In this document: positions 1,536 through 38,151 of the stretch, in pieces | How the letters are laid out: the number at the start of each line of letters is the position of its first letter | Position numbering within the stretch: position 1 is the first letter of the stretch | From: Anaerolineales bacterium | GTDB taxonomy: Bacteria > Chloroflexota > Anaerolineae > Anaerolineales > Villigracilaceae | Length of the DNA stretch: 41,072 nt | Direction: 5' to 3' | Assembly (NCBI GenBank): GCA_016789365.1 | Contig: JAEURH010000023.1 | Location: 1 to 41,072 of the forward strand | Position numbers and translations under genes: made by a program | The notes under the pieces: model-generated | Told to the model about the DNA's origin: nothing | The model's database searches: none | The model's input: only the letters and a program-made list of their open reading frames with translations

Positions 1536-1633
1536 ATTAATAAAACGGTTAGACCGTTTTACCCGCCCCAAACAATAAGGTAGCCAAGAGAGGCTGTCTT
1601 TCTCGAAAGAGAATAGTTTGGGGTGTTTTATTT
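1536..1633 (+). ncRNA. Candidate structured small RNA ending in an intrinsic terminator
   Basis: From the predicted start, the sequence holds a perfect 9-bp stem-loop (TAAAACGGT at 1541-1549 with ACCGTTTTA at 1553-1561). It continues with a domain closed by CCCCAAAC (1566-1573) and GTTTGGGG (1616-1623). Inside that domain are an AGCC/GGCT hairpin and a TCTC-GAAA-GAGA tetraloop hairpin. The closing stem is followed by TGTTTTATTT (1624-1633), so it doubles as a terminator. I do not recognise an RNA family. The promoter, multi-helix fold and terminator in under 110 bp support a real transcript. It could instead be only a bidirectional terminator between this spacer and the convergent gene, whose stop codon overlaps the T-tract. 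Confidence 0.45.
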
Positions 1634-2246: not shown

Positions 2247-2365
2247 AATAAATTATCCCAAGTCTTTTTAATCTAAAAGTTGATGAATTTTAACCTATTC
2301 ACGATTTTATTTTGGCTTATAATAATCGCACACTTGTTCCATTAACGCCTAAATGCGAGGAAAAG

Positions 2366-4900
2366 ATGGCTAAACAAAATCCTATATTCACAACAATTGG
2401 AAAGAAAACTAATGAAATTCCTGTTGAAATTAGCTATAAAATCTTAGAGTTATTTTCGGGCGGTTTATATTCAAGCCCCACTAAAGCAATAGAGGAATTA
2501 GTAGCAAATTCATTTGATGCGTTTGCTAGTTGGGTGCATGTTCTTATTTCACAAGACATAGATTCTGAAAATGCTATCATTGCAGTAGTAGATGATGGTG
2601 ATAGTATGGATATTGATGGATTAAAAGCATTATGGAAAATAGGAGAGAGTGCTAAAGCGGACGAGCAGAAGATAGACAAAAATAAAAGGTTGCCAATTGG
2701 GAAATTTGGAATTGGTAAATTAGCAACTTGGGTACTTTCGAGAGAGTTAACTCATATCTGCAAGCAGAAAAATAAATATCTTGCAGTTACTATGTTTTAT
2801 TCAAATTTAGATAATAACAAAACAGCAGAAAATTCAAAGTTGAATCTTGACGTAAGAAATTTAAGTAAAGACGAAGCTAAGGAGGCCTTAAAAACTTTAG
2901 CAACAATGAACTTTGACTTAAATATATTATTTAACAATAATGTCGATTCTTGGACAGTTTCTATACTGAGCAATTTGAAACCAATGGTTAAGGATTTAAA
3001 ACCGGGTAGGCTTGAATGGGTCTTATCAACTGCTATGCCACTTACGCCAGATTTTAAGTCTTATTTAAACAATAAAGAAATTAAGCCTATTAAATTAGAT
3101 ACGAAGCCAATTAATAAACTAATTATTGGAAAAAATGACAAAGTTGCTGACAATTTAGGCTTCATTTCCGACAAAAATGACATGCTACCTGACGAAGAGA
3201 AATTTGGTGTAACTCTCCCAACATTAGGGAGAATAACCGGATTTGTATAAATATATGAAAATACCTTGACAGGGGGGAAATCAGCGGAATGGGGAAGAAG
3301 TCATGGTTTCTTTGTTATGGTTATGAATAGATTAATAAATATGCATGATGAATTATTTGGTGTTCATCCACTTTCGCATAAAACTTTTAACAGATTTAGA
3401 CTAGTTGTTCATTGTAATGGTTTGAATAAATTCTTACTTTCAAGTCGAGAAGGTGTTGCTGAAAAGGACGCCACCAACGAATTAAAGAAATACTTAACTG
3501 CAAAGTTTTATGAAGCTGGAAGTTGGTATGAAAAATGGATTATAGAAGAGTCGGATAAAAAATTACTTTCTATACGGCTTGGAAAAATACCCCAAGGTTT
3601 TCTTAAACGTCCTATAGTTGAAATGGTAACAAAAGCTATACAAGGTCAAATACCTTTTCCACGTTTAACAAGAATTCCTACAGGACTAACTAAAGAAGAA
3701 AATCAACAATTTGTTGAAAAGTTAGTAGACGCTACTGCAATAGACTCTGAAAAAGAATTCGTAAAAGACATTGTATTTGAAGCATTGGGTATTGAGTCCC
3801 CAATAGCTATGTTTGATGCAGTAAACAACAATATAGTTATTAATAGTCTTCACCCATTTTATGTTAATTATCAGGATTATTTCAAGAATCAAGAGCCTCT
3901 TCAAATTTGGGGAGTAGCTGAAATTCTTACTGAGGCACATCTCTATAGCATTGACATGCACTCTGAAGATATTAATGAAATTCTCTCAAAAAAAGATAAT
4001 TTTCTTCGAGAACTTGTTTATTCATCTGATCGCCTTAGTGCTCCATTGGTTGCACAAATGCTACGGGAATCTGCTAGTGATGAGGGTGCGCTAGAAAAAG
4101 CTTTAGCCAAAGGTTTTCGAAGTTTAGGGTTTGATGTAGTGCCTTTAGGACTAGCTGGAAAACCTGATGGATTAGCCACTGCCAATTTAGGTTTTCGCCA
4201 AGATGTTCAAGGTGTAGCAAAATACTCAATTACATATGATGCTAAAAGCACAAAGAATGACCGCGTACAAACGGGTAATGTAAATATTTCAGGAATAGCC
4301 CGACATCGGCAAGACTATAAGGCTGATTTTTCTGTAGTGATTGGTAAGCAATTTTCTGATAAAAAAGAAGAAAACTCTGCTGTAATCAAGGAAGCTAGAA
4401 TGCAAGGAAAAATAACTCTTATTGAAGTTGAAGATTTCGCATTACTAGTTGAAACAGCATCTACAAAACGATTAGGTCTGCACAAACTAAGAGGTCTTTT
4501 TGAAAATTGTTGTTCACCTTCTGAAAGTCGAAAATGGATTTTGGATTTTGTAAATGAAAGCGTATCTGTTCCTCCAATTTCAGAGATCTTACATGTAATA
4601 TACAAAATGCAATCTACCACAAAAGAATCTGTACAAATTGCTGATATTAAATGGCAAGATGACAAACTTAAACCACTAGGAAAAAAAGAAATCCTTGAAT
4701 GGCTTCAATCAATTTCTTCGTTAGTGCCTGAATATATAAGTATTCAATCTGGGGATGTTGTAGAGTTACAGACCCATCCTGATAAAGTTTTAGAGGCAAT
4801 TGGAAACGCTTTGAAACAAGAAACTCCATCTACAACAAGTAAAGCTTTACTGAAAAGTATCGAAAATTCTGAAAAAAAGAATAAGATTAAAAAGAAATAA
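2366..4900 (+). pseudogene. MORC-like GHKL ATPase fused to PD-(D/E)XK nuclease, interrupted by one in-frame TAA
   Basis: A single 845-codon frame from ATG 2366 (good Shine-Dalgarno GAGG upstream) to 4900, broken only by TAA at 3248-3250 (codon 295). Before the stop are GHKL ATPase motifs: N-box ELVANSFDA (residues 44-52), DDGDSMD (76-82) and GKFGIGKLA (112-120). After it the same frame continues with TLTGGKSAEWGRSHGFFV, as expected for the next strand of the ATPase/S5-like region, so the two parts were one gene. The C-terminal part has a nuclease-like arrangement: GFRSLGFDV, then KPDG (Asp601), then YDAK (Asp625, Lys627), matching PD-(D/E)XK. GHKL ATPases of the MORC/MutL type are known from restriction-modification loci, and a DNA methyltransferase follows at once. 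Usual reading: nonsense-mutated restriction ATPase/nuclease. Readthrough or a sequence error are alternatives. Confidence 0.75.
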
Positions 4901-4901
4901 A

Positions 4902-6275
4902 ATGACACAAAAAACTATTAGAAATCTTAGTAAAAGGGGTCATAAAACAGTAAAACAGTTACCGAAGGCTCCTGAACAAGGAGCCTCTTATTGGATAGAT
5001 TCCCCAAATGGCAAACGCGAGTTTACTCATCCGCTGTTTAAGTTCCCTGCCAAATTTCATCCCCCAATCGTCAGATGGGCAATAGATACTTTTTATGAAG
5101 ACGGCGTAATTCTTGACCCCTTTATGGGGAGTGGAACAGTTCAAGTAGAAGCACTAGCAAAAGGAATAGATTCAATTGGAATTGATGTTGATCCAATAGC
5201 AATTTATATTAGCAAAGTAAAGTCTACACCTATAGAGCCTGAAACTTTAAAAAAAGAGTTTGAGGTATTAAAAAGAGCCTTATCAAATAAAATCGAGTTA
5301 CATTCTAAAGTAGAAAAAATAGAAGGAGGGGATATAAGTGTTAGGAAATTTAATGTAGAAAAAAACAGATTGCCAATTCCGCCTATACCTAATATTCCGC
5401 ATTGGTTTAGATTGTATGTAATTATTGATTTAGCACAGATATTAAAAACTATAGACTCCGTAAAAATAAGAAACAAATCACGTGATTTTTTCAAAGCTTG
5501 TTTTGCTTCTATTATTCGACGTGTCTCTAATGCAGAACCTGGTACTGTATCCGGGCTAGAGGTAACCTCTATTCAATCTAAAAAAAATAAAACAAGAAAA
5601 ATAAGTGTTTATAAAACTTTTTTCTCTAAAGTTGAATCTGAAATCCAAAACATGGCAGAACTTTGGAAAGCTTCTAAAAAATCCGCTGACAATGTTTCTG
5701 TAAATATATTTTCAGGCAATGTGAACGATATTCTTAAAAAGAAGAAATCTTTTGAAGATGTTTCTTTAATTATTACCTCACCACCTTACTGCCGTGCTGT
5801 TGAGTATAGTCGTAGGCATTATTTAGAGATGTATTGGCTTAAGTTTGTTAAAAGCCAAGATGAGCAAGTTTCATTAACACATACCTATATTGGCAGAAAA
5901 TTAGTTCGTCGCTTAGATTGGGATTAACAAGTTGTATTTAATATTCCTGAATTAGATAAGACAATTAAGAAAATTGAAAAAATAAATAAAGTTAATGGAC
6001 GAACTGTTCGCCATTATTTTTATGCGATGGATAAGTTTTTTAAATTATTGGCACAAGCAACACCAAATTTATCAAAAGCTATTTTTGTAGTTGGTGATTC
6101 TGTATGTTGTGGAATACCTGTAAAAACTGCAGACTTTATTTCAAAATTAGCCTCTAAAAACTTTAAGTTTGAAAAAAATTTCTCGTATGCTATTCAACAT
6201 CATCATATGAAATATGGGTTATGGAATGGTGATGGGATTAAGAAAGAGCATGTATTAATTCTTAGTAAAAAGTAA
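4902..6275 (+). pseudogene. DNA methyltransferase (SPPY type) interrupted by one in-frame TAA
   Basis: One base separates it from the upstream ATPase-nuclease, so both belong to one transcript. A 458-codon frame runs from ATG 4902 to TAA 6275 with a single internal TAA at 5925-5927 (codon 342). S-adenosylmethionine binding motif I is LDPFMGSGT (residues 71-79) and catalytic motif IV is SPPY (293-296). SPPY is typical of N4-cytosine and related amino-methyltransferases. The order is motif I then motif IV, with about 215 residues between that could hold target recognition. After the stop the same frame continues VVFNIPELDKTIKKIEKIN to a plausible C-terminus ending HVLILSKK. The truncated product keeps both motifs but loses about 115 residues. 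It was likely the modification partner of the upstream nuclease. It ends one base before the convergent proC stop codon. Confidence 0.78.
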
Positions 6276-16846: not shown

Positions 16847-17623
16847 TTATGTATTGGAAGTCTCATCTTGTTTGAGACTTCCATCTATTTCTAGATCTCC
16901 CTTAAAGTTAATCTCTACAACTTTTTCTTTTCTAAACCTTTGCCAAAGGAATATCCCAGAAATTTCTAGTGTTATCAGATAAATTCCTTTTGTTGCTTTG
17001 TATTTATAAGATTTATTATTCCCCACTCCTTGTGGGTTAGTTGCAAGCCAAAAAGAGTCATTCGGGTTTCTGTTGCAAACAGCAATACTTGCTTGGGCAT
17101 GTTTCTTTCCCAAAACATCCATTGTGTCACTATTAGACTCTATCCATATTAATTTTCTGTCTTTATCGTTTTTGTCGATAAAGTCTGGAATTGGAGAAAA
17201 ATGAGAACTAGTATTTATAGCATTTAATATAGTAACAACGCAATCTTTTATTTTTTTATCAGTCTCGTTGTAAATTAATAATGTTATATGCTTTTGCCCT
17301 GGGAATCCTTCTAATTTAGATAAATCAAAATGAACATTTGTTTGTTCGAAACCACCTAATTCCTCAAACATGTTAACTGGAGTTTTTATAACATATTTGA
17401 GGACGCGCAAAATTATTAAGATGCCAATAGGAATTAATGAATAGAAGATATATAACCAAGTCTGCTCAATAAAAAAATTACTTCCGCCATAAATAAAAGA
17501 TAAGATACCACCTACAATCAAAGCTAATACGGAATTGCGTGTGTCTTTTTGGTCGATTAAAAGTATTGATCGAAGAAATTCTATGAAATATAAAAAATAA
17601 TATTGCCTAGTTTTTTTATTCAT
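16847..17623 (-). CDS. Unrecognised two-helix membrane protein
   Basis: A 258-residue protein I do not recognise. Two hydrophobic segments lie near the N-terminus (SVLALIVGGILSFIYGGSNFF at about 31-50, and TWLYIFYSLIPIGILIILRV at about 55-74), preceded by a basic, aromatic-rich start. The rest is a soluble domain with beta-like sequence (KHITLLIYNETDKKIKDCVV; KGIYLITLEISG) that could be an immunoglobulin-like fold. It is AT-rich relative to its neighbours and stands alone between the phosphohexomutase and the MutL operon, so it may be a recent arrival. A hairpin lies inside its last codons. Function unknown. Confidence 0.6.
   Translation of the reverse strand: MNKKTRQYYFLYFIEFLRSILLIDQKDTRNSVLALIVGGILSFIYGGSNFFIEQTWLYIFYSLIPIGILIILRVLKYVIKTPVNMFEELGGFEQTNVHFDLSKLEGFPGQKHITLLIYNETDKKIKDCVVTILNAINTSSHFSPIPDFIDKNDKDRKLIWIESNSDTMDVLGKKHAQASIAVCNRNPNDSFWLATNPQGVGNNKSYKYKATKGIYLITLEISGIFLWQRFRKEKVVEINFKGDLEIDGSLKQDETSNT
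16855..16883. terminator. Hairpin at the convergent gene ends
   Basis: TGGAAGTCTCA (16855-16865) and TGAGACTTCCA (16873-16883) with a 7-base loop. It sits inside the last codons of the minus-strand membrane gene, 33 bases beyond the phosphohexomutase stop, so it may end transcription of the latter. No strong T-run follows. Confidence 0.45.
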
Positions 17624-17662
17624 ATCAAGTTTCCCATTTAACTATTTTAATAAAACCTATTA

Positions 17663-17692
17663 AAAAAAGACTCTCAGCTGAGAGTCTTTTTT
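17663..17692. terminator. Strong bidirectional intrinsic terminator of the MutL operon
   Basis: A perfect palindrome, AAAAAAGACTCTCAG (17663-17677) followed by CTGAGAGTCTTTTTT (17678-17692), 11 bases beyond the last gene of the minus-strand operon. On the minus strand the stem ends in a T6 run. Confidence 0.88.
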
Positions 17693-17703: not shown

Positions 17704-18303
17704 TTATCTTGTTGGTGAGGCGCGTAACCTTCTGGCTAACAAAATAACCATGACAAATGCCAATGCCATTACGGCTAAACCTGGTACACCGTAATCGTCA
17801 ATAAAGCCGGTATTGGGTAAAGCGGTAGTTGTCGGTACAATCGTCAATTGAGCAATTGCCGCTTGCGTCAGCGCCGCGCCTACGGTGGCAGTTGCGGCGG
17901 CGGGTGTACCTGCATCTAGCGGGGCTATTGCGCCACCTGATGAATCTGCTGTGGCGTTGGGGTCTGGCGTATTAGTAGTAGTAGCAATATTTACAACAGG
18001 TGTTGCTGTCGGAGGTTCAGTAGCAGTCGGCAAAATAGCTTGTGCTTCGGCAGTGGCAGTGAGGGCTTGATTAATAAAATTGTTAGATGCGGCGGCAGTT
18101 TGAGTGGCGGCATCAATTTGGGCTTGTTGAGTAGTTTGATTATTGCGGTTTACTAAAAAGATACCAACGATGCAAGCAACTGAAAGCAGAATAATTCCGC
18201 CCAGAATGCCAACTGCAATTAAGAAGGTGCGATTATTACTCGACTCTTCTGGGAGTTGTTCTTCTTCATCTATATTTTCAAAATTGTTGTTATCGAAAGA
18301 CAT
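17704..18303 (-). CDS. Bitopic Thr/Ala-rich membrane protein with LPNTG-like C-terminal signal
   Basis: A 199-residue protein, last gene of the MutL operon. After an acidic N-terminus a membrane segment spans about residues 25-50 (FLIAVGILGGIILLSVACIV). A low-complexity Ala/Thr/Pro stretch follows, including TPDPNATADSS. The C-terminus has LPNTGF near residue 162, then a hydrophobic segment (VPGLAVMALAFVMVILLARR) and a basic tail, the layout of a sortase sorting signal. No sortase gene lies in the window, so sorting is only inferred; the C-terminal helix may simply be a second anchor. Thirty bases separate it from the upstream gene. Confidence 0.65.
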   Translation of the reverse strand: MSFDNNNFENIDEEEQLPEESSNNRTFLIAVGILGGIILLSVACIVGIFLVNRNNQTTQQAQIDAATQTAAASNNFINQALTATAEAQAILPTATEPPTATPVVNIATTTNTPDPNATADSSGGAIAPLDAGTPAAATATVGAALTQAAIAQLTIVPTTTALPNTGFIDDYGVPGLAVMALAFVMVILLARRLRASPTR

Positions 18304-18333
18304 GCAACACGCTCCTGATTGGTATTGGCGATA

Positions 18334-19392
18334 TTATCCCACAACTTCAAGGTTAACGAGCGGGGCAATCACGGTCTCGCCATTTTCTAACTTAATTTCG
18401 GCAGATGGCGCGCGTAACCCGCTGGGTAGTGTGGTTAAGCCAGGTTTTATTGAAACGATAGAACCTATCATCCCCATAAAAGGTGGGCGACGCATTCGCA
18501 CTTGTAAGCCGGGTGCAAATTCTTCCACTTCTTTAGGAGATAAAGGGTCTGACGAAGTTGGTAGTGGAATAATCACTTCGGGTCTGGCACCTGTGTATCT
18601 ATCATAAAATTCTGCATTCACAGTCACTTCACGTTTGGCGTTGGTGCTGAGTAATTTATACGCGGCTGAATTCATGGGTAAAGAACCAAAACCATCAGTC
18701 ACCAAAATTGGGTAACGCATTTCACGCGCTTTGGCAAGCAAGGACGGATAAATACTGGCAATGATTAATCCACGGGCGGGTAATTCGGCGGCGGCTTCTA
18801 AGGTATCTACATCTTTCACTAAGCCAGCCAAAATGACAGAACCTCTCAAACTCACATCTAAACGATTGGGCGTAAGAATCGCATCGGGTGCATCTGCCAA
18901 GTTTGCTAGTATGCCTGAATCGATTCTTCCATTGCCCCACACACCTTGAATTAATCCGCCAGCAGTTTGAATCACAACGCCTTTGTTGGGCAAAATCTGA
19001 ATCACAGTGCCGGGAATGCCAGCGCGTAATTCTATTTTTGTTTCGCCGGCTTCCATCAATACTTGTCCGCCGCCCACTGCTACCACACGCCCGGCGCGCG
19101 GCGCACGGATAGATTTTGCAAACATGCCTTTGCCCATTGCAATTTCTGCATTGGCTTTTAATTCGTCATTGACATTGCATTTGATTAAACGGTCTGCCGC
19201 ATTGGGTGAAATATTTAATAAGCGTGCCACATCTAACAAAACATGTTCACGCGCCCATCTGGTTTCAGCCACCACATCATTCGGGGTGACCTTTTGTTGA
19301 ATGCGTGCAGTCACATTGCCTGAAATCGGCAACACTCTTTCACGCACAATAGATGTAAGACCAATAATATGATGAACAGGTGCTTGCATCAT
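18334..19392 (-). CDS. Uncharacterised beta-rich protein of the MutL operon
   Basis: A 352-residue protein with no membrane segment and no family I can name. The middle (IRAPRAGRVVAVGGGQVLME and ELRAGIPGTVIQILPNKGVV, about residues 95-150) looks like a barrel-sandwich (biotinyl/lipoyl-like) fold. The C-terminal part with FMGMIGSIVSIKPGLTTLPSG resembles a KOW-type beta-barrel. A segment near 240 (RYPILVTDGFGSLPMN) is Rossmann-like. ATG 19392 is chosen: it overlaps the MutL stop as ATGA and has GGAGG just upstream; a start at 19416 is less likely. Overlap with the ATPase gene implies the two products work together (inference). Confidence 0.65.
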   Translation of the reverse strand: MMQAPVHHIIGLTSIVRERVLPISGNVTARIQQKVTPNDVVAETRWAREHVLLDVARLLNISPNAADRLIKCNVNDELKANAEIAMGKGMFAKSIRAPRAGRVVAVGGGQVLMEAGETKIELRAGIPGTVIQILPNKGVVIQTAGGLIQGVWGNGRIDSGILANLADAPDAILTPNRLDVSLRGSVILAGLVKDVDTLEAAAELPARGLIIASIYPSLLAKAREMRYPILVTDGFGSLPMNSAAYKLLSTNAKREVTVNAEFYDRYTGARPEVIIPLPTSSDPLSPKEVEEFAPGLQVRMRRPPFMGMIGSIVSIKPGLTTLPSGLRAPSAEIKLENGETVIAPLVNLEVVG

Positions 19393-21146
19393 CCGCCTCC
19401 CAGTGTCCAATTCCATTTTTTGATGAGTTCGCGTCTTCTGACGGGGTCATCTGGTAAATCAAGTGGGCGACCTCTGCCATCGAAGACGACGCCTAACGCC
19501 CCACCACTGACAGGAATTGTGCCTCCGCGTCCAGGTCCAAAACCAACATCTGCACCGCGTAAAACTTGGATTGTTAATTTACCTGTTTCACCATTGGCAA
19601 GCGGCAGGGTTTCAATGCTTCCAAATTTCAAATCTATATTTGCTTCGGCACCATTTTCGTAACTAAGTTTTGCTTTCAAAATAGATGTGCCATATCTTGC
19701 CGAAACAACTGGCGAGACGACTGTGCCAACGCTTAAGAAAGCGCCACTTTCTAATACTTGCACGGGCAAAATATTATTTTGTGATGCGGCAACACCTAAC
19801 AATGGTAATAAATTATTTTGGTCAAGAATGATGGTGGTAATGCCAACAGGTTGGATTCCGTCGAGGAGCAGTAACAGGCTTTGGCCAGGCCGCGAAGCGT
19901 CGCTCAAGGCGCCGCCTCCAGCAAGAATCGGTTCAAAGAGCGGAGTCAAATTTGGTTTTATGTTGGCAATATTTTGTGGAAAATCTTTTTTGGCAGTTTG
20001 CATGGCGAGATATAAGGCTTCGCGTGCAATGGCTTGAGAAATGGCGAGGTCTTCTTGCGTGGCGGCGATGGTGGCTGGATATAAAGATTTTTGATGTAAA
20101 TAATCGAGCAAAACGCCGCTGGAAATATCTAATGATGACCACTCTAAAATATTATCAAGCGTGGTGTAATTTAATAAGCCGACCAAATTTTGACCCAAAC
20201 TAAATTGTGGCAAAACTTTTAATGTGGATTTGTTTTTGAATCCACCTGCAATCACGGTTGCAGAGGCACCCATATCCACGCTTAAGATTCCTTTTTGTGA
20301 ACCATATACTTTTGAAAGAAAACGCACCATGCGCCCAGTTGCATAAGCAGTTGGAAGCATGTGACCACCCGACCATAAATCTAACAAATCTACACCTTTG
20401 ATTTGGCGTTTGCGAATGTTAATAATCATGCGGGCGAGTTCGCGTTCGGCAGGGTCAATATCTTCTGTTTCAAGAGATGGGCGAATGTTTGGGCTGAAAT
20501 GTAAAGAAGTTGATAATGAACCAACCAATGTTTTTACTTCTTCTTCCATTTTTTGGTTGCCAGCAAATAAAACAGTGGGGCGTTTTTCTTCTGGCATTAA
20601 GAAACTTGCTAAACCAATTGGCTCTAATAATTTTTGAATCGAACGAGATGCGCCACCATCTGTTCCACCAGCAATGACGACAAGTTCTGGGCGAACGCGC
20701 ATCAAACTGTCAATTTGTTGGTCAGGCTTACGCTGGTCACTCAGGCTCATCGAGTCCATGATGCGGGTGTAGGTGGTTTCGGTGAGTCGGCGTGCGCTAT
20801 CTAATGAAACATCTTTTAACAACCCAACCACGACAGTTTTGACAGTGGGTCCAGCAGATAAAGTGATGACTAACGCATCAACCCCTGACCCGTTTGCTTG
20901 TGTGGGTGTAATGATGCCTCTGGATGAATCTAGCAAAGTTTTGCCTACGATTTTTTGTAGGTTAGCAACAGCATTTCTCGCACCTTCGGCTACATCTTTG
21001 ATAGGTGCTTCGGCAGTGCTAGGTGCAATGCCTGATGCAATGAAACGATATTCGCCTTCAATTACGTCAAACAATACAGCGCGTGTGTTTGCCGCACCGA
21101 CATCTATTGCTAATAAAGAGTTGCTGGTGATGATAGAAGAAGGCAT
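19389..21146 (-). CDS. MutL/GlmL-type ASKHA ATPase (glutamate-mutase MutL family)
   Basis: A 585-residue relative of MutL/GlmL, the actin/Hsp70-fold protein often encoded with adenosylcobalamin-dependent glutamate mutase (not the mismatch-repair MutL). The N-terminal phosphate-1 motif is LLAIDVGAANTRAVLFDV (about 12-29). IAGGTDGGA (about 161-169) and the second phosphate motif SVDMGASATVIAGG follow. LAGGGALSDA near 400 is the adenosine-binding loop. The C-terminal 150 residues extend past the core, ending in a beta-rich region with GADVGFGPGRGG. No mutase subunit (mutS/mutE) is seen in the window. It is coupled by overlaps to a membrane protein upstream and a beta-rich protein downstream, so it probably serves an envelope-associated complex here (inference). 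Confidence 0.82.
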   Translation of the reverse strand: MPSSIITSNSLLAIDVGAANTRAVLFDVIEGEYRFIASGIAPSTAEAPIKDVAEGARNAVANLQKIVGKTLLDSSRGIITPTQANGSGVDALVITLSAGPTVKTVVVGLLKDVSLDSARRLTETTYTRIMDSMSLSDQRKPDQQIDSLMRVRPELVVIAGGTDGGASRSIQKLLEPIGLASFLMPEEKRPTVLFAGNQKMEEEVKTLVGSLSTSLHFSPNIRPSLETEDIDPAERELARMIINIRKRQIKGVDLLDLWSGGHMLPTAYATGRMVRFLSKVYGSQKGILSVDMGASATVIAGGFKNKSTLKVLPQFSLGQNLVGLLNYTTLDNILEWSSLDISSGVLLDYLHQKSLYPATIAATQEDLAISQAIAREALYLAMQTAKKDFPQNIANIKPNLTPLFEPILAGGGALSDASRPGQSLLLLLDGIQPVGITTIILDQNNLLPLLGVAASQNNILPVQVLESGAFLSVGTVVSPVVSARYGTSILKAKLSYENGAEANIDLKFGSIETLPLANGETGKLTIQVLRGADVGFGPGRGGTIPVSGGALGVVFDGRGRPLDLPDDPVRRRELIKKWNWTLGGG

Positions 21147-21838
21147 TAGAAAATTCCGAAGAAGTTAATCAAAGATGAAATGCGTTCAATAAAAGCAGTC
21201 AATGCGGCGGCATACACGCCAGCAAAGATGACACCTAATGTGATGCCTATGAAAATTCTTCCGATAAATGCAAAGAATTCAATCAAAACAAAACGGCGTG
21301 GATTTCCATTCGTTTGTGGACGTGCGCCAAAATGAAAATAAGATAATGTAGTCACTACGCCAACAAGCACAATTGCACCATTGCCCATAACTTCGAGTAA
21401 ATCAATGTTTCTAGCGGCGGCGAGACGGGGGTCAAAGAAGTTAATGCTTGCAGAAACTTGTGGAATGATTGTCCCAATCAATGCGCCGGCGATAATCACT
21501 GCCGCACCTGCCCCAACAAGAAACGCCATGGTGATACTAGCAATCTTTGATAAACGTGGTGAAATTTTCATCAAAATAAAAACCGCACCGAGCCATGGAA
21601 CAATGATGATGGCTCGTTCAATCATCGAGCCTGCGAACAAAGCAGGAATAGTTGGCGAGAATAAACGCGGCGTGAGCACTTGCCACCAAATCACAGAAGC
21701 GACATAACCCGCAGTAATGCCGACAAAAAGATAAATAGCAATTCTAAATAATGGGTTATCTCCGATGAGATAACTCAAAATTAAAAGTGTGAAAAGAAAA
21801 CTTAATACGCCAGTGATGAGGTCAAGAGAAATTTGCAT
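21146..21838 (-). CDS. Polytopic membrane protein of the MutL operon
   Basis: A 230-residue integral membrane protein with about six to seven hydrophobic segments, beginning DLITGVLSFLFTLLILSYL and ending IFIGITLGVIFAGVYAAAL. No catalytic or transport signature is visible and I do not recognise a family. ATG 21838 is two bases before the upstream gene's TAG and has GGGAGGAG at good distance; the stop overlaps the MutL ATPase start (TAATG). The ATPase may be recruited to the membrane by this protein (inference). Confidence 0.72.
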   Translation of the reverse strand: MQISLDLITGVLSFLFTLLILSYLIGDNPLFRIAIYLFVGITAGYVASVIWWQVLTPRLFSPTIPALFAGSMIERAIIIVPWLGAVFILMKISPRLSKIASITMAFLVGAGAAVIIAGALIGTIIPQVSASINFFDPRLAAARNIDLLEVMGNGAIVLVGVVTTLSYFHFGARPQTNGNPRRFVLIEFFAFIGRIFIGITLGVIFAGVYAAALTAFIERISSLINFFGIF

Positions 21839-21839
21839 A

Positions 21840-24410
21840 CTATTTCTCCTCCCTTCGTTCACGCAAACCGAGTATCAAATTCCACAAACCACCGCCTAAC
21901 ATCAAAGCCATTGCAATTAACATACCAATACTATAAGCATCCCAATAATTTCTAGAGGTTCCCGGTCTGCCCGCGTTGTATTGTTCAAAAATTGCTCCGC
22001 CGTATAAACCGGGCACAATTCCCGTTACTTGACCAGAGTCATAATACGGTTGAATCATTGGTGCGGCTTGTGCGCTGGAAATTACAATGAAAGGAATATC
22101 TCCACGTAAACCTTGTGTTTGTTCCACCCAAACACGTGCGGCATCGGCATTGTCGGTGATTAATATTATGGCTGTAAATTGATTAAGTGAAGTCACACCT
22201 TGAAGCGGAGCAGATGCCCAAGCAGGCTGACCAGAAATGTCAGATGATGATATGACACTTGGGTTTTGTGCAAAAGCACGAATCCCAAGTTGACCACCGG
22301 GTAAATAACCCAAGTTTGAGTAAGTAACTCCGCTTTGGTAATTGTGAACAGCCAGAGGTCCAGCAATGAAGCGTTCTGCTAGTACAGAGCCAGTTTCACT
22401 CGTAGAAATAAACGTCAAACGCGGATGTTTCAATAAAAGAAGGTTATCAAACAAAGGTGCGGCGGCGGCTTCCATTTCACCTGCACGGGCAGGTTCATAA
22501 TCAAATGCAACGAGCAAAGGCGCATTTTCTGGAATGGATTGCGCAACTTGAATTGTTCTGCCTACTTCGCTAGGAATACCGCGTGGCAGTGAAAAAATTT
22601 GTGTTCGCAAAAAGACAGTGCTAAAAACAATTGCTAACATCAAAAGTGATAAAGCCCAACGCAAAGCACGTGATGATAATAATGTTGAAAACGATTCAAT
22701 TGGCACAGGCGAAGTTTCTGCCGAGAGAATATCTTCTAAAATACCAGCGTGTCTTAATTGTTCAGCACTTGCATTTAATTTTAATGAGTAGGCTTTCGGT
22801 TTGCTGGTTGGTGTAAAACCTGGCACGGCAGGTAATACCCCTTGCAACCCAGCCAATGCGCCACGTGATTCTAGCGTTTGGTCACTAGCAGAAGATGTAA
22901 GCTGTGAAAACCCACTATCACTGGGGCGCATCGCCTCTACCCACGAAGGCAAATTGCTCGAAGGCAAAACATCTTCATTTGTAATGGGTGTTGGTGTTGA
23001 AGATGAAGGTAAAGGTTGTTCACTAGCACTGCTCAACCAATCTGGCATTTCGGTAAACAAACCTTCTAGGCTTTCATCACTTTGTGAATCTAATGTAAAG
23101 GCTGGCATAGAAGCGAATGGGTCAGACTTTTCTGGCTCAATATTACTTTCAACTTCTGTTTCGCCAGAAGGTTGAATCGCTGAAAACCAATCTGTGGCAC
23201 CCGAAGAATCAACTTCCGATTTCAATTCATCTTGTGAATCAAAAATAGTTTTTTCTGGCGCGGCGGCTTTTAACCAATCTGGCACGTCACCGAGTAAATC
23301 ATCTTGTGTGGCTGGTTCTTCTTTTGTTTGGTCGGGATAAACTGTTTCTTCAGCAGATGATAACCACGCAGGTAATTCTGGTTCTTGCGATTGCACTTGT
23401 GGCTTCAACCACAATGGCGTAGTTGTATCTTGAGATGGCTTTTCTTCTTCAACTTCGTTTGAACTTTTCAACCAATCGGGCATATCCATTGGAGGAAGTG
23501 ATTCCGCTTCTTTCTCAGGGACATTTGATTCTGTAAAAGCGGCGGGTTCTATGCTGGAAGTGTTGTCATCTGCACCACCTAAAGTACTTAACCAATCTGG
23601 TGTATCAATATTTAATTCAGGTGCATCTTGCGGAGTTTTTGCTTCTACAGGCTCAGCATTGGCTGACATTTGCTTAAGCCAATCTGGTGTGTCAGCATCA
23701 AATTGTGAATCACTAGCAGGTTGTGATGAAACCTGTTGAGATTTTGATTCTGCCTCTGCAGACATTTGCTTTAACCAATCGGGTGTATCTTCTTGTGATG
23801 GTGTAAAAACAGGCGGCTCTTCTTTCAAAGGTTGTTGAGGTTCGCTTACATCTCGCGCCCAATCTAGCAATTCATCTTTTTCAGGTGCAGATTCGTTTTG
23901 TAAACCTGCTAACCATGATGGAACGTCATCATCCTGCCCACCACGTGATGGCGGTTGGGCTAAGATGTTTTCACTTTGTGCAAAATCATCTTTTCCGCCC
24001 ATCTCTACCCAACGAACATCGGTAGCGGGTTCATCCTTAGCAGGTTTTGATTTTGGCGAAGCACCCGTGATACTGGCAAGCCAGTCTGGTACTTCTTCTT
24101 CATCGTCACCTCCTGCTTGAGATTGCAAACCTGCTAACAAGTCAGGTTGTGAGGCGACGGGTTTCGGTTTATTTTCAGTTGTTTGCAAAAAATCTGGCGA
24201 ATCATCTTGCGGGTCTACGTTGCGAGCGGCATTTCGTGCATCTCTTAACCATTGTGGCAGAATCGGTTCAAGCTCGGCGGTGTGTTTTTTAGTCGGTGCT
24301 TGCCCAGAAGGAATATTTGATTTTGGTTGCAATTGAGAACGACAATTGGTGCATAACTCTAATTCAGCCGAGTTCATTTCTCCACAAATGGGGCATTTAA
24401 TATCTGCCAT
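21840..24410 (-). CDS. Zinc-ribbon membrane protein with tandem Pro-x-Trp-Leu motifs
   Basis: An 856-residue protein. The N-terminal zinc ribbon has Cys6-x2-Cys9 and Cys20-x2-Cys23. Residues 50-500 or so are acidic, disordered-looking and punctuated by about twelve P-x-W-[LV] motifs, including VPDWL, TPDWLKQM (twice), MPDWL, LPAWL and LPSWV, spaced roughly 25-50 residues apart; they look like docking motifs. A membrane helix (LRWALSLLMLAIVFSTVFL, about 575-595) leads to an outer domain of 230 residues (SIPENAPLLVAFDYEPAR and PFIVISSAQAAPM), then a C-terminal helix (GMLIAMALMLGGGLWNLI) and a charged end. Overlaps the genes on both sides. The domain order suggests a membrane scaffold with a cytoplasmic recruiting arm. 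Confidence 0.75.
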   Translation of the reverse strand: MADIKCPICGEMNSAELELCTNCRSQLQPKSNIPSGQAPTKKHTAELEPILPQWLRDARNAARNVDPQDDSPDFLQTTENKPKPVASQPDLLAGLQSQAGGDDEEEVPDWLASITGASPKSKPAKDEPATDVRWVEMGGKDDFAQSENILAQPPSRGGQDDDVPSWLAGLQNESAPEKDELLDWARDVSEPQQPLKEEPPVFTPSQEDTPDWLKQMSAEAESKSQQVSSQPASDSQFDADTPDWLKQMSANAEPVEAKTPQDAPELNIDTPDWLSTLGGADDNTSSIEPAAFTESNVPEKEAESLPPMDMPDWLKSSNEVEEEKPSQDTTTPLWLKPQVQSQEPELPAWLSSAEETVYPDQTKEEPATQDDLLGDVPDWLKAAAPEKTIFDSQDELKSEVDSSGATDWFSAIQPSGETEVESNIEPEKSDPFASMPAFTLDSQSDESLEGLFTEMPDWLSSASEQPLPSSSTPTPITNEDVLPSSNLPSWVEAMRPSDSGFSQLTSSASDQTLESRGALAGLQGVLPAVPGFTPTSKPKAYSLKLNASAEQLRHAGILEDILSAETSPVPIESFSTLLSSRALRWALSLLMLAIVFSTVFLRTQIFSLPRGIPSEVGRTIQVAQSIPENAPLLVAFDYEPARAGEMEAAAAPLFDNLLLLKHPRLTFISTSETGSVLAERFIAGPLAVHNYQSGVTYSNLGYLPGGQLGIRAFAQNPSVISSSDISGQPAWASAPLQGVTSLNQFTAIILITDNADAARVWVEQTQGLRGDIPFIVISSAQAAPMIQPYYDSGQVTGIVPGLYGGAIFEQYNAGRPGTSRNYWDAYSIGMLIAMALMLGGGLWNLILGLRERREEK

Positions 24411-25021
24411 TATTTACCCCCATACGGACGGTCTATGCCGAATAACACGCGTAACCCTGTGACAAGTGTGCCAAGTGCTACGCCAATCAAAATTCCGCGT
24501 GCGCCGCCCAATGCCCAAATTTGGCTGACCCATGGGCGAATCAATGTTCCAACTATTGGCACATCACCAGTTGGTAATGTGGCTGAACCGAGAAAAATTA
24601 ACACAGCAGTAATAATGAAGAAAATACTCATTACATCTGCACGGCGGCGTAAGAGACGAATGGCGGCATATAGCAATGTGATTGTGAGCAAGCCCATCAA
24701 AGTGGCTTCAACGGGCAGAATGATTCCGTTGAGAATCACTTGCATTATCTGATGTTGTGGTTGCAGAATTAACCCAAAAACAAAAGTTGCCACCAATGCA
24801 ATTACAAGAAGTGCGCTATATACACTGCCTTTTTCTGCACGGCGAATTTTATCGGTATGTACTGCAATTAAATTAAAAATACCAACCAATGAAGCAACAC
24901 CTGCAAGAATGATTGCCCAATTTAATAATAAAGTTTGAATGCCAACAAATCCAGCAAAAAAATAACCAAGCAAAACCATCAAACCAACTGCAATTGCAAT
25001 GACGGCGGTGAAAACGCGCAT
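24410..25021 (-). CDS. Polytopic membrane protein of the MutL operon
   Basis: A 203-residue protein with about six hydrophobic segments, starting MRVFTAVIAIAVGLMVLLGY and including ALLVIALVATFVFGLIL. The C-terminal GTLVTGLRVLFGIDRPYGGK is short and basic. ATG 25021 overlaps the upstream stop (TAATG), and its own stop overlaps the zinc-ribbon gene start in the same way, so the three genes are translationally coupled. A longer start at 25081 would overlap the upstream gene by 60 bases and is rejected. No family assigned. Confidence 0.7.
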   Translation of the reverse strand: MRVFTAVIAIAVGLMVLLGYFFAGFVGIQTLLLNWAIILAGVASLVGIFNLIAVHTDKIRRAEKGSVYSALLVIALVATFVFGLILQPQHQIMQVILNGIILPVEATLMGLLTITLLYAAIRLLRRRADVMSIFFIITAVLIFLGSATLPTGDVPIVGTLIRPWVSQIWALGGARGILIGVALGTLVTGLRVLFGIDRPYGGK

Positions 25022-25761
25022 TAAATCACCCCCACAAACTTTGCGGCGGCACCACCTATCAATGTAGCGATAATTAACCAACGCAAAATATCTTGCACAG
25101 TCAGGCTAGCAGAATGGGATGTGCCTGCACCTAAATATGCACCCGTTGCAAATAATTCTTCACCAATTAATGCATCTTGCGTGCTGGCATATAAAACGGA
25201 TTGACCTGCTAAATTATCGCTGGCACCAATCAGAGTGACATAATCACGGTCAGAAATATCAGCCAGTAAACCGGCTTCTGGTCCAAAGTGACCAATCATA
25301 ATATTTGTGGAAACATTTTCATTAGAAGCAATGTGCATCGCCCCAGCGGCATAACTAAATGGCGTTAACCCAGTGACACGGCTTGTGGTCGGCACATATA
25401 ATTCTTCTACCCCAGCGGCGTGATAGCCCGCTTGCATAGTATCTTGTGTTAACAAGCCAAGTGCAGGGTCGCCCGCAGAGGCAACAGAAGGCATATCGCT
25501 AACAGATGTTTTTTCTGAAATGATTCGCAAAGCGGCAAGCCCAGCAAAAGCAGAGCCACCACGTTCATCTAATAAACTGCCATGACCTAATGAAATGTGT
25601 AAGCGTTTGCCATCTTCGACGCTTAATCCCAAAGTTCGCACGAGGCGCGTGAGTGCAGGAATTTCTCGAAAGCGAGGGGTTGAATTTCTCGTGAGCAAAG
25701 CAACCACGAGTAATAAAATTGCGGTGAGGGAAAGAATGCCTAAGGCAAGCAGAAATGTCAT
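25021..25761 (-). CDS. DUF6754-like membrane protein of the MutL operon
   Basis: A 246-residue protein with an N-terminal membrane helix (LLALGILSLTAILLLVVALL), a soluble domain of about 190 residues and a C-terminal helix (WLIIATLIGGAAAKFVGVI). The middle carries LHISLGHGSLLDERGGSAFAGLAAL (as LGHGSLLDERGGS), MIGHFGPEAGLLAD and TLIGASDNLAGQ. I believe this matches DUF6754, a family of unknown function, but cannot test it here. It overlaps the first gene of the operon by four bases (ATGA) and the next by one. Confidence 0.65.
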   Translation of the reverse strand: MTFLLALGILSLTAILLLVVALLTRNSTPRFREIPALTRLVRTLGLSVEDGKRLHISLGHGSLLDERGGSAFAGLAALRIISEKTSVSDMPSVASAGDPALGLLTQDTMQAGYHAAGVEELYVPTTSRVTGLTPFSYAAGAMHIASNENVSTNIMIGHFGPEAGLLADISDRDYVTLIGASDNLAGQSVLYASTQDALIGEELFATGAYLGAGTSHSASLTVQDILRWLIIATLIGGAAAKFVGVI

Positions 25762-26003
25762 GGATGTGACCCCGTTTGAGTTAAGAAAGATGCGAAAGCC
25801 CGCGCTTCAGATTCATCTTCCAGCATGGTTGCTAAAGCAGTGAGTTGGTCATTCTTTACAAATCCGCCACTGAAATACAGTGCTTGCGCCCCAATCAATG
25901 CAAGCGGACTTGTGGCTTCGAGCAACGAGGCGGCTACATCTTGAAGTTGATAACGGCGCAAGGACTCAGCCCAGCGATGCCAAAATTCGCGCGATGACTC
26001 CAT
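25758..26003 (-). CDS. Small helical protein, first gene of the MutL operon
   Basis: An 81-residue protein of unknown function with no signal or membrane segment sure enough to call; the middle (PLALIGAQALYFSGGF) is moderately hydrophobic. Its stop overlaps the next start (ATGA), and candidate promoter elements lie just upstream, so it opens the operon. No Shine-Dalgarno site is visible before ATG 26003. Confidence 0.65.
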   Translation of the reverse strand: MESSREFWHRWAESLRRYQLQDVAASLLEATSPLALIGAQALYFSGGFVKNDQLTALATMLEDESEARAFASFLTQTGSHP

Positions 26004-26129: not shown

Positions 26130-27377
26130 TCACGGTGCAATTGTTGTCCCGCTTGGTATCTCTGTATCTTTAGGAATAATCACAATGCCATCGCGCACAT
26201 ACCATTTTTCATTATCAATATCGGTATTGCGCGGAAACGGTTTAATGGTGACGTTATTTCCAATATGACAATTCTTATCCAAAATCGCATTTTCAATATG
26301 GCAATTCGCACCAATGCCAATTGGTAATTCTTTTGTATCTCTTTCATAATAATCAGCACCCATCACAATGCTATCTTTAATCACACATCCGCTCGCAATT
26401 TGACTACGAATGCCAATAATGGAATGTGTGATTTGAGATTTCAAAATTTTGCTTCCCTCAGCAATTAACACATCTTTCAAAGTTGAATCTTCTACAATGG
26501 ATGCAGGCAAATAACGTGTATCGGTATAAATCGGAAGTTTGGCATCGTAAAAATCAAACGGGGTTTCAGCAGTTGTTAACATCAAATTGGTTTCATAAAA
26601 CGAACGGATAGTTCCAATATCTTGCCAATATCCTTCAAAATCAAAACCATACACGGCATGTGTCTTAATCGCATTTGGAATAATATCACTCCCAAAGTCA
26701 TCGTAATCTGGAAAATCCTTCAAAAAATCTAGCAAGACTTTGGTGTTGAACATGTAAATTCCCATCGAACCTAAAAATGGGCGTTGCTCATCATCGCGGC
26801 TGATATATTTATTTTGCGTTTCAGTGTCTTTCGGTTTTTCTACAAAATCAGAAATCTTTCCATTTGATTCGCGTTTCAAAATCCCAAAGCGACTTGCTTC
26901 GCCTCTAGTTACGGGTTGAACTGCTACTGTGATGTCGGCATTATTCTTCCAGTGATACTCTGCCATCTCTTTATAATTCATACGGTAAAGATGGTCACCT
27001 GCTAATATCAAAACATATTTTGCACTGGTCGCTTGAATTTCTAACATCTGCTTGCGGACGGCATCTGCCGTACCTTGATACCAATTTTCACTTTCCATCG
27101 TCTGTTCTGCCGCCCAAATTTGTACCCAGCCTTGATGAAAATTGTCAAAGTTGTAGGAGCGAGTAATATGCCGATGGAGAGAAACAGAATTGAACTGAGT
27201 CAGAATCGCAATGCGAAAAATTTCCGAATTAATACAATTACTAATCGGAATATCAATCAGACGATATTTGCCTGCAATCGGCACCGCAGGTTTAGAGCGC
27301 ATTTGAGTTAACGGAAACAAACGAGCACCACGTCCCCCACCGAGAATCACAGCCAAGACTTCATTCAACGACGGCAT
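26130..27377 (-). CDS. glgC: Glucose-1-phosphate adenylyltransferase (ADP-glucose pyrophosphorylase)
   Basis: Makes ADP-glucose from ATP and glucose-1-phosphate, the committed step of bacterial glycogen synthesis. The 415 residues match the family. The nucleotide loop LGGGRGARLFPLT is at about 12-24, followed by KPAVPIAGKYRLIDIPISN (about 28-46). WYQGTADAVR, LAGDHLYRM and FVEKP are the catalytic and sugar-binding segments, and the C-terminal left-handed beta-helix (hexapeptide repeats such as IGANCHIENAILDKNCHIG) is complete. ATG 27377 has GGAGG upstream. No glgA or glgB is in the window. A small membrane ORF and a strong promoter precede it. Confidence 0.95.
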   Translation of the reverse strand: MPSLNEVLAVILGGGRGARLFPLTQMRSKPAVPIAGKYRLIDIPISNCINSEIFRIAILTQFNSVSLHRHITRSYNFDNFHQGWVQIWAAEQTMESENWYQGTADAVRKQMLEIQATSAKYVLILAGDHLYRMNYKEMAEYHWKNNADITVAVQPVTRGEASRFGILKRESNGKISDFVEKPKDTETQNKYISRDDEQRPFLGSMGIYMFNTKVLLDFLKDFPDYDDFGSDIIPNAIKTHAVYGFDFEGYWQDIGTIRSFYETNLMLTTAETPFDFYDAKLPIYTDTRYLPASIVEDSTLKDVLIAEGSKILKSQITHSIIGIRSQIASGCVIKDSIVMGADYYERDTKELPIGIGANCHIENAILDKNCHIGNNVTIKPFPRNTDIDNEKWYVRDGIVIIPKDTEIPSGTTIAP

Positions 27378-27419
27378 AAAAGCCTCCAATAATGGGTTGT
27401 CTTACAAACTAGATTCTCG

Positions 27420-36345: not shown

Positions 36346-38151
36346 TCAACCGCGCTTAAACTTTTCATGGTATTCTGGCAATTCAATCATGGGCGGGCGT
36401 TCACGCTCGGCAATCTCTTCTACACTCAAAGAATACCCTTCGCTGGAAGTATATCGAATCAACTTCATAGATTTATTTACTTCTTCTACTGCCGCACGCC
36501 CGAAGCGTTTTTCTTGTTTACGAAGTACGGCTTGAATAATCGCAAAAGACATTTTGCTCAACGCTTCTAAATGCTGATTGTGATGGATTCTTTCCAACAA
36601 ATCTACTTGGGCAATTCCATGAATCCCAAATTCTTCATAAATATCAATCAATAAACCTGTTTCCACGCCATAGCCTGAAAAGAAAGGAATTTTTTCTAAT
36701 GCAGTGCGTCTGCCACCATATTCACCAGAAAGCGGTTGCACCACGCCTGAAAGTTCTGGATAAAAAAGATTCAACAAAGGTCGCGCGGTTAATTCAGTCA
36801 CACGTCCGCCGCCGCCTGCTTGTAATTTTTCGCCCACGCGCAAAGGTCGGCGATAAAAGCCTTTCACCAATTGCACTTGCGGATTTAATAACAACGGTCC
36901 AATAATCCCATACACAAAACGTGGATGAATATTGACAATATCGGTATCAATCCACACGATAATGTCGCCTTTTGTTACAAGCAAACTTTTCCACAACGCC
37001 TCTCCTTTTCCACGTCTAGGTTTGAGGCGTTCTAAAATTTGTTGATGAATATAAACAGGCACGCCTTCTTTTTTTGCAATCTCGCGCGTGCGGTCTTTTG
37101 AGTTTGAGTCAATCAAAACAATTTCATCAAGCAACGGGAATTTTTGCATCAACTCTTTTTTCATCATGCGAATCACTTTGCCAACTGTTTCTTCTTCATT
37201 CAAAGCAGGCAAAGCCAAACTAATCGTTAATTTTTGTTGTTTCTTTAATTCAACCAAATCTTTCAAATTCTTAAACTCATCAGCCTCAAATGTATTTTCG
37301 CCAAACCATTTATCTACCAAAATCGTAATGGCTTCCACGCCCGCGCTTTCATCATATTCCGTTTGAATGCCAGACGCTTTCTTAACAGCAATTACCGTAC
37401 TAGGTGCTTCACGCAAAACTCTATCTGCTACATAACCCAACGAAGCCGAACTTGAAAATGACTGCGCGGTTGTACCCAACACGATGATGTCATTGTGCTT
37501 TGATTTTTTGATAATAGACTCAGCCGCTTCATCTGTGACTTCAAACTGTTTCTGCACCTCAGGCATTTGTCTTAACACCCGCTCTAGCCCAATAAAGGGA
37601 GCATCGGTGCCAGCCATCGGGTCATCTGTTTTACGAATGTGCAAAGCAGTGACTCCTTTTGGGCTTAACCCCAAGCCAACCTTCAATGCCAATTCTGCAT
37701 GTGGACCACCCCTAGCAGGCACAAGAATTTGTTTTGGTTTATTTGGTATTTTGCCACGCACCAACGCTACATCACATGGCGGGTTGGATAAAACATCATG
37801 TGGTGTAACTCTTAAAGCGTTGATGTGAGTTTCCCATTCTAAAAATAATAAATCAGGCTGTTCATGTTGCAACATCACCGAAAGTTCATGCCATGGATGA
37901 TGAGACACAATCACTTGTGTTTTGCTGATGATTTGTTTGTCTCTGCCATATTCACGCAATTTCTTTCGTAAAGCACGCGCTGAAATTGCACCTACACTTA
38001 ATGATTGACCTTCTGGCACAACCACAATCCCTACTAAAACAATATCAGCATCAAAATGACGGGCGGCTTCTATCATGCTTTCGCCAGGTCCATCATGGAT
38101 TAAAGGAATAAAAATAGTGTGGATGGGTGAAAATTCTGAATGTTTCTGCAT
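36346..38151 (-). CDS. Double universal-stress-protein domain fused to glucosyl-3-phosphoglycerate-synthase-like glycosyltransferase
   Basis: A 601-residue multidomain protein. Residues 10-135 and 138-258 are two Usp-like domains (second with GTTAQSFSSSASLGYVADR). Residues 281-601 are a GT81-type glycosyltransferase: ALPALNEEETVGK (313-325), KPRRGKGEAL (377-386), the metal DTD at 402-404, GFYRRP, GGGRVTELTARPLLN, QPLSGEYGG and GYGVETGLLID. This is the glucosyl-3-phosphoglycerate synthase (GpgS) type, which makes the precursor of the compatible solute glucosylglycerate. Donor and acceptor are inferred. A Usp-GT81 fusion would link stress signalling to solute synthesis. Upstream lie two GT4 genes on the same strand. 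Confidence 0.82.
   Translation of the reverse strand: MQKHSEFSPIHTIFIPLIHDGPGESMIEAARHFDADIVLVGIVVVPEGQSLSVGAISARALRKKLREYGRDKQIISKTQVIVSHHPWHELSVMLQHEQPDLLFLEWETHINALRVTPHDVLSNPPCDVALVRGKIPNKPKQILVPARGGPHAELALKVGLGLSPKGVTALHIRKTDDPMAGTDAPFIGLERVLRQMPEVQKQFEVTDEAAESIIKKSKHNDIIVLGTTAQSFSSSASLGYVADRVLREAPSTVIAVKKASGIQTEYDESAGVEAITILVDKWFGENTFEADEFKNLKDLVELKKQQKLTISLALPALNEEETVGKVIRMMKKELMQKFPLLDEIVLIDSNSKDRTREIAKKEGVPVYIHQQILERLKPRRGKGEALWKSLLVTKGDIIVWIDTDIVNIHPRFVYGIIGPLLLNPQVQLVKGFYRRPLRVGEKLQAGGGGRVTELTARPLLNLFYPELSGVVQPLSGEYGGRRTALEKIPFFSGYGVETGLLIDIYEEFGIHGIAQVDLLERIHHNQHLEALSKMSFAIIQAVLRKQEKRFGRAAVEEVNKSMKLIRYTSSEGYSLSVEEIAERERPPMIELPEYHEKFKRG

Follow-up and report, generated by a model that had tools for sequence, protein, structure and literature searches.

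Results

The window, that is, the whole stretch of 41,072 nucleotides that was analysed, carries an operon of eight genes, here designated A to H, all of which lie on the minus strand between 26003 and 17704 and are followed by a strong terminator; the preliminary description had proposed this layout, and open reading frames, junctions and folding energy all agree with it. Gene A (25758..26003) encodes a small soluble helical protein of 81 aa without a Pfam family, and gene B (25021..25761) a protein of 246 aa in which two membrane helices enclose a domain predicted to be cytosolic. Genes C (24410..25021, ~203 aa) and E (21146..21838, ~230 aa) each encode six predicted membrane helices, and between them lies gene D (21840..24410, 856 aa), whose product consists of an N-terminal zinc ribbon, 12 PxW[LV] peptides, a membrane helix, a Rossmann-like domain and a second membrane helix. 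Gene F (19389..21146) encodes a MutL-type ASKHA ATPase of 585 aa with an extra C-terminal domain bearing D-x-R-G-R-P ... W, and gene G (18334..19389) a protein of ~351 aa with strand-rich N-terminal, swivelling-type and KOW domains. The accessory gene H (17704..18303) encodes 199 aa, with a membrane helix, a Thr/Ala-rich stretch, LPNTG, a second helix and RR.

Read from the DNA, the A/B junction is ATGA, those of B/C, C/D and E/F are TAATG and that of F/G is TGATG, while D and E are one base apart and the G/H gap is 30 bases. For three genes the starts at 25021 (C), 21838 (E) and 19389 (G) fit the relatives better than those of the ORF caller; gene C probably starts at ATG 25021 rather than at TTG 25081, and gene E probably at ATG 21838. 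The intrinsic terminator after H (17662..17692, minus strand) is a palindrome with a T-run, and the 61-base stretch containing it folds at -17.3 kcal/mol (z -4.4), with none of 200 shuffles as good. Membrane segments are predicted in B (two), C (six), D (two), E (six) and H (two), which makes five of the eight proteins; two marginal hydrophobic windows of F, which fall inside the ATPase fold, were left out of the count.

The gene set is conserved. In all 39 named Anaerolineales loci the order A to H is kept as far as the contigs extend, with absences at contig ends only and few interrupted reading frames (e.g. F in L041 and L070). Gene A occurs in 34 of these loci, the remaining five being cut by contig ends, gene C in 35, gene E in 37 and gene H in 36; among 40 distant loci the respective counts are 19, 22, 22 and 7, and gene A is also found upstream of F-G in L165-L167. 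The membrane set B-C-D-E together with the ATPase F is present in 22 of 38 distant genomes, a sample picked by the author. DUF6754, the family of B, was detected in 57 of 61 order-level relatives and in 56 of 251 genomes of the phylum, and in 44 of these 56 it lies 2.8-7.3 kb from F. The genes therefore stay together rather than being scattered, as had been predicted. Many lineages, however, retain F-G alone or zinc ribbon-F-G without B, C and E, which indicates that the membrane part is dispensable. Proteins like DUF6754 and G probably also exist in phyla other than Chloroflexota.

The core of the system is the pair of F and G, which is its most widely kept unit. G is found in 143 of the 251 genomes, and a divergent F adjoins G in 19 of 20 further G loci, the twentieth (L175) holding a probable F-G fusion.

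F matches PF13941 with an E-value of 4.6e-57 and 194 bits (cut-off 27) over positions 2-447 of 450. The NCBIfam GlmL match has an E-value of 6e-25, and the curated GlmL models all remain below their cut-offs (NF040745, 87.9 against 475 bits; TIGR01319, 63.5 against 204.05; NF040744, 49.9 against 600). F thus shares the ASKHA fold family with GlmL/MutL, the accessory protein of adenosylcobalamin glutamate mutase, but differs from it in length (585 versus ~460 aa), in its new C-terminal domain, in phosphate-2, where the second Asp that GlmL has is missing from 24 of 24 F rows, and in the absence of mutase genes. The motif residues of the C-terminal domain are present in 19 of the 24 F rows and in none of six mutase-type rows, and in the tree the F clade is separated from mutase-type MutL with a support of 100/100. 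No kinship of this C-terminal domain with parts of G was found.

The MutL match by itself is no sign of glutamate mutase, because 104 of the 251 genomes pass the MutL cut-off and only four pass that of the mutase (PF06368). None of the four is the source genome, whose assembly is 86% complete, and the ORF list and the Pfam search of the operon revealed no mutase gene in the window. In G176, a mutase-type MutL lies beside GlmE, and the operon-type F belongs to a separate cluster at a distance of ~490 kb. An ATPase operon independent of glutamate mutase, as originally suggested, is thereby confirmed, and a role of F as mutase helper was rejected in view of the GlmL scores, the lack of a mutase E subunit, the separate clade and the additional C-terminal domain. 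F could instead be a MutL-like chaperone or reactivating factor for another enzyme; with G as its adaptor, it would spend ATP on reloading or refolding a membrane protein that binds a cofactor (e.g. C, E or B). Its membership by sequence in the MutL family and the fusion of B12-binding and MutL domains in L113, within the same phylum, speak for this reading; nevertheless, neither Pfam nor NCBIfam revealed a cofactor-binding enzyme family among the eight proteins, and the missing E subunit, the clade and the C-terminal motif weigh against it as well, so we regard it as unlikely.

The preliminary description had likened the ATPase to FtsA, PilM and MreB, and the analogy to PilM gained slight support. 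The profile of F could be aligned with structures of PilM across both phosphate motifs (phosphate-1 and phosphate-2) at E 0.0046, with no single stretch significant, and the PilM-type phosphate-2 motif D-x-G-A-x-x-T was seen by eye in part of the 24 F rows. As in type IV pili (PilM) and FtsA systems, the operon combines a cytosolic actin-fold protein with membrane proteins of the bitopic and polytopic kinds. However, in Pfam F matched only MutL at E <= 1, with neither PilM_2 (PF11104) nor FtsA (PF14450), no PilN, PilO or PilP was detected among A-H at the same threshold, and the PilM-like matches of the source genome are on another contig. The acidic residue (D) of phosphate-1 and that of phosphate-2 are each retained in 21 of the 24 F rows; they are lost in some F proteins, and the L175 fusion is without a recognisable ATPase domain. 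Hydrolysis can therefore not be a universal requirement. The F profile also matched Pelota (E 0.0012, best single stretch 1.2), which was taken as chance. F as a stand-in for a missing MreB was also considered, and was rejected because no clean replacement pattern emerged: MreB matches occur in 189 of the 251 genomes, twice in the source genome (G000), and MreB accompanies F-G in many genomes, while several F-G holders (f20, f28) are without it.

G is strand-rich, which bears out the beta-rich protein listed earlier among the partners of the ATPase; the same description overlooked F and G as the most widely kept unit. In the predicted-structure model, the N-terminal domain is barrel-sandwich-like and is followed by a swivelling-type domain at ~154-285 and a KOW domain at ~298-360 (numbering of the 360-aa model). 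No Pfam or NCBIfam family covers this three-domain arrangement of the window's G over its cut-off. An NGN domain before KOW was unmatched by Pfam and unlisted there by VIA, whose silence excludes no fold. An internal duplication of G was not found, and its match to the lysozyme family CW_7 (E 1.9e-5, no single stretch significant) was taken as chance, since it covers a short stretch with a WGNG string.

The last domain of G resembles in fold NusG, Spt5 and L24, and its middle domain the swivelling domains of UPF0107, rifampin phosphotransferase and the small part of aconitase X. Such a composition might suggest a membrane-tethered link to RNA, transcription or translation, in which the KOW and an RraA- or swivelling-type domain of G would recruit RNA polymerase, ribosome or RNase components to the membrane scaffold. 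We consider this quite unlikely, as no RNA-processing, ribosomal or transcription gene recurs beside the operon, the best VIA matches of the middle domain are the three families just named and not RraA, and KOW-type barrels also act as protein-binding modules.

G is remote from F in Chloroflexia-type genomes, where it has two-component genes as neighbours; this counts against a single machine encoded by the operon. These neighbours, response-regulator genes by Pfam (five proteins, four loci), among them a REC-GAF-HisKA-HATPase kinase in L153 and a protein in L154 that matches Roadblock weakly (E 0.005, below cut-off), could rather point to a signalling-controlled polarity or surface-motility system like those of gliding bacteria, in which the operon would provide the envelope motor and G would be the part under regulation. 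Several holders of the system are presumably filamentous gliders, and H weakly matches the gliding protein GltJ (E 8e-5, far below cut-off). That match, however, sits in low-complexity sequence, and the F-G pair also occurs in many lineages for which no gliding is known, so that a motility role appears rather improbable.

Besides the ATPase, which had been described as the sole member of a named family, B also belongs to one: it matches DUF6754 (PF20539) with an E-value of 5.3e-20 and 72.1 bits (cut-off 27). Averaged over 39 rows, K+R is 0.03 ahead of the first helix and 4.0 behind it, and this charge bias places the domain inside. DUF6754 has no described function, and a literature search on DUF6754, PF20539 and PF13941 found none among the papers covered. 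The membrane part might also form a transporter or channel, with C and E as the pore, B and the Rossmann-like (then RCK-like) domain of D as regulators and F-G gating it with ATP, which we judge to be very unlikely.

D accords with the zinc-ribbon protein with repeated motifs that had been described: CxxC...CxxC lies at its N-terminus, and its 12 PxW[LVMI] motifs far exceed the shuffled sequences (mean 0.44, maximum 3 in 1000 shuffles). In the source genome, codons for PDWL are clustered only in D (7) and in one TPR protein (7), with 19 others scattered (control, 13), and both proteins have the common consensus [DE]-x-P-D-W-L, of which the TPR protein holds 12 copies. The feature varies among relatives: the PxWL count is 0 in D of L117, L122, L123 and L133 and 1-3 in seven others, the CxxC pairs are absent from 8 of 33 distant D proteins, and G118 has no second PDWL codon cluster among the matches listed, D itself having only 5 there. 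As judged from the charges, the Rossmann-like domain between the two helices of D probably lies outside. Homology between the domains of B and D was not detected by hhalign.

H is a late and loosely attached accessory, as its presence in only 7 of the 40 distant loci illustrates. It had been called LPxTG-like, which is a weak label: LPNTG is present in the window's H, but its match to PF00746 (16 bits) stays below the cut-off of 20, and an intact LPxTG was seen in 28 of the 36 H proteins from named loci and in 4 of the 7 from distant ones. The source genome has five sortase matches over cut-off.

A phage or defence origin was considered and rejected: no PADLOC match at E <= 0.01 was obtained for B, C, D, E, F or G, no PHROG match for F, G or B, and two weak ones for D (E 0.008) fall in its zinc-ribbon part. 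Plasmid homologues of B and D were not found.

Discussion

Based on these findings, we propose that the operon encodes one membrane-anchored machine, in which a PilM/FtsA-like ATPase switch docks on an envelope complex, and we give this reading about an even chance (probability about 0.5). In the cytosol, the ATPase F and the adaptor G would form an obligate pair that, like PilM or FtsA, switches upon binding ATP, rather than serving as a mutase chaperone. D may anchor this pair at the membrane, its long tail offering ~12 [DE]-x-P-D-W-L peptides for multivalent docking and its Rossmann-like domain being displayed, between the two helices, on the outer face. From B would come a domain in the cytosol and from C and E the polytopic portion in the membrane, with A as a small cytosolic subunit, whereas H may be a loosely attached surface protein in Anaerolineales. 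A further candidate partner is the TPR protein with its 12 copies of the D peptide.

The work of such a machine would most likely be the building or organising of the cell envelope. Hints in this direction come from the neighbourhoods, as an L,D-transpeptidase gene adjoins G in two Chloroflexus-type loci, an mreB-mreC-mreD-PBP cluster lies 3.6 kb from F in L134, and mreB is found within ~8 kb of F-G on the same contig in all five genomes of that genus. However, the mre neighbourhood is limited to this one genus and has unrelated genes in between. Clustering of the flanking genes also revealed no partner outside A-G in more than six loci, the commonest being an ABC-type ATPase, and that no recurring neighbour points to a pathway counts against the proposed machine.

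More tentatively, and on balance rather doubtfully, the system could be a phylum-wide, undescribed actin-fold ATPase machine, in which F-G as universal switch would dock through PDWL on the DUF6754 complex, organise an unusual monoderm-type envelope and recruit TPR-based clients through the same peptide code. If true, it would join MreB, FtsA, ParM, MamK and PilM as another class of actin-fold systems in bacterial cell biology.

G is present in more than half of the Chloroflexota genomes sampled (143/251), but the operon fits no system described so far, and F may easily be mislabelled as a glutamate mutase protein. The cell biology of Chloroflexota is poorly known, and the operon gives defined handles on it, namely an ATPase whose motifs can be read, its obligate partner and a short peptide code, as well as copies in relatives that can be cultured, glide or are phototrophic and have complete genomes.

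Conserved eight-gene operon in Anaerolineales

In this 3.8-Mb assembly of an Anaerolineales-type Chloroflexota bacterium, G000 (398 contigs, completeness 86.5%), the ORF list places eight minus-strand genes, A to H in transcription order, between an upstream glgC (26130-27389) and an unrelated gene (16847-17623) beyond H. The six junctions within A-G, read from the DNA, are overlaps of 1-4 bases or a one-base spacing, the gap between G and H is 30 bases, and a strong hairpin with a T-run lies 3' of H. These features confirm the eight-gene operon of the preliminary description, although three start codons need a small correction.

Genome contigs were scanned with F, the MutL-type ATPase, which yielded 39 Anaerolineales loci whose ORFs were then searched with the window proteins. 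Gene order A to H is invariable across them, so the eight genes do stay together in these relatives, a point that the preliminary description had put up for checking. F was found in all 39 loci, G in 38, E in 37, D and H in 36 each, B and C in 35 each and A in 34, and missing genes coincide with contig ends. The upstream glgC is present in 31 of the 39 and a downstream phosphomannomutase-type gene in 22, and DUF6754, the family of the membrane protein B, occurs in 57 of 61 close relatives. Because relatives of the 16847-17623 gene were found in 0/39 loci, the operon ends at H; the product of that gene, a predicted membrane protein of 258 aa, matched no family.

Pfam and NCBIfam name two of the eight proteins, F and B, so the statement that only the ATPase belongs to a named family stood for F but not for B. 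PHROGs, PADLOC and PDB sequence searches named no system, and a search of an open-licence library yielded nothing on DUF6754, PF20539, PF13941 or Chloroflexi MutL with glutamate mutase. As a system the operon appears to be new, with folds that are already known.

The operon ATPase is not a mutase helper

The operon F is not a helper of glutamate mutase. As first described, the ATPase occurs without the mutase: no PF06368 match over cut-off was found at this locus or in G000, and such matches occur in only 4 of 251 genomes of an even phylum-wide sample. One genome (G176) holds both kinds: a MutL neighbours GlmE, and an operon-type F is encoded far from it. The two groups separate with support of 100/100 in a tree built from 51 F-like and 5 mutase-type sequences; four branches are long and composition is uneven, which leaves the inner branching order unsure, and full operons are interspersed with reduced ones. 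The acidic Asp residues of phosphate-1 and phosphate-2 are each kept in 21/24 operon-type rows, and the second Asp of the GlmL phosphate-2 motif is missing in all 24. An exact DxRGRP stands in the C-terminal part of 19 of these rows; none of the 6 mutase-type rows, among which one gene is represented twice, has the motif.

The F-G core and its full and reduced contexts

The core of the operon is F plus G, its partner protein with swivelling-type and KOW domains. In 20 stretches round G, taken from genomes where PF13941 missed F or scored it weakly, an F profile detected a divergent F gene immediately 5' of G in 19 (weakest in L177, E 2e-9), and the small soluble protein A stands before F in three (L165-L167). 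An 854-aa protein of L175 (6099-8663) appears by eye to be a fusion in which the F end (LGLIIDTRPR) runs into a whole G; Pfam assigned it no family, and no recognisable ATPase domain is left. In Chloroflexia-type genomes G is present in 9 of 10 tested (G116 lacks it), away from F, and adjoins response-regulator genes in L151-L154 and L157-L159, one regulator having a weak Roadblock-like end. In two Chloroflexus-type loci an L,D-transpeptidase gene adjoins G.

A profile search covered 40 distant stretches from 38 genomes of other families, chosen for holding F or B. Of the 38 genomes, 22 have B, C, D, E and F grouped, in one case across two contigs; G is next to F in these, except in the Chloroflexia-type ones and at a single locus truncated by its contig. 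Reduced sets comprise a D-like gene with F and G only (L125, L126, L127, L128, L130, L133, L138, L140, L141), a D-like gene and F without G (L124), and F and G alone (L129, L134, L135, L137, L139). L107 and L113 carry a mutase-type MutL without other operon genes. At L113 (4233-8027), in a genome without the operon, the protein has 1264 aa, with a MutL domain at the end and a B12-binding-like stretch near the start (E 4e-5, below cut-off).

In the phylum survey, G occurs in 143/251 genomes, MutL in 135 at E <= 0.001 (104 over cut-off) and B in 56. B and F lie on one contig, 2.8-7.3 kb apart, in 44 of these 56 and on different contigs in 11, and one has no F among the matches listed.

PDWL peptides in D and a TPR protein

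The zinc-ribbon membrane protein D carries 12 PxW[LVMI] motifs with the consensus [DE]-[TLV]-P-D-W-L. The D of L118 has 49 and several others have none to three, and the motif is thus not universal. The PDW[LF] codon pattern occurs 33 times in G000 (7 in D, 7 in one TPR protein, 19 scattered), against 13 for the reversed-pattern control. That TPR protein (C387:5545-8418, locus L186; 957 aa), with TPR repeats at both ends, carries 12 motifs that share the D consensus and is the only place besides D where such a codon cluster was seen; its gene precedes one for a nucleoside diphosphate kinase. In G118, no second cluster appeared among the places listed.

Proposed working and envelope role

We propose that F-G could act as an ATP-dependent switch, which would be docked through D onto a complex that B, C, D and E would form in the membrane. 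The comparison of F with PilM draws on its gene company and on a weak alignment of profiles spanning the two phosphate motifs. The system may serve the cell envelope; the hints, none of them decisive, are protein topology, the LPxTG-like H together with sortases, the L,D-transpeptidase neighbour, and an mre cluster in one genus. In that genus (f32; L134, L137), mreB, mreC, mreD and a penicillin-binding protein gene, identified by Pfam on L134, lie near F-G on the other strand, separated from it by unrelated genes.

Other features of the window

A low-G+C block at 1632-5927 (G+C 0.33-0.34 over 2001-6000) contains two ORFs that were read by eye: one is GHKL-like, of the ATPase type, and seems to be split near 3250, and the other (4902-5927) is DNA-methylase-like. 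On this reading the block resembles an island of the defence or restriction type. The two halves of a 601-aa ORF at 36346-38151 appear by eye to be stress-protein-like and glycosyltransferase-like.
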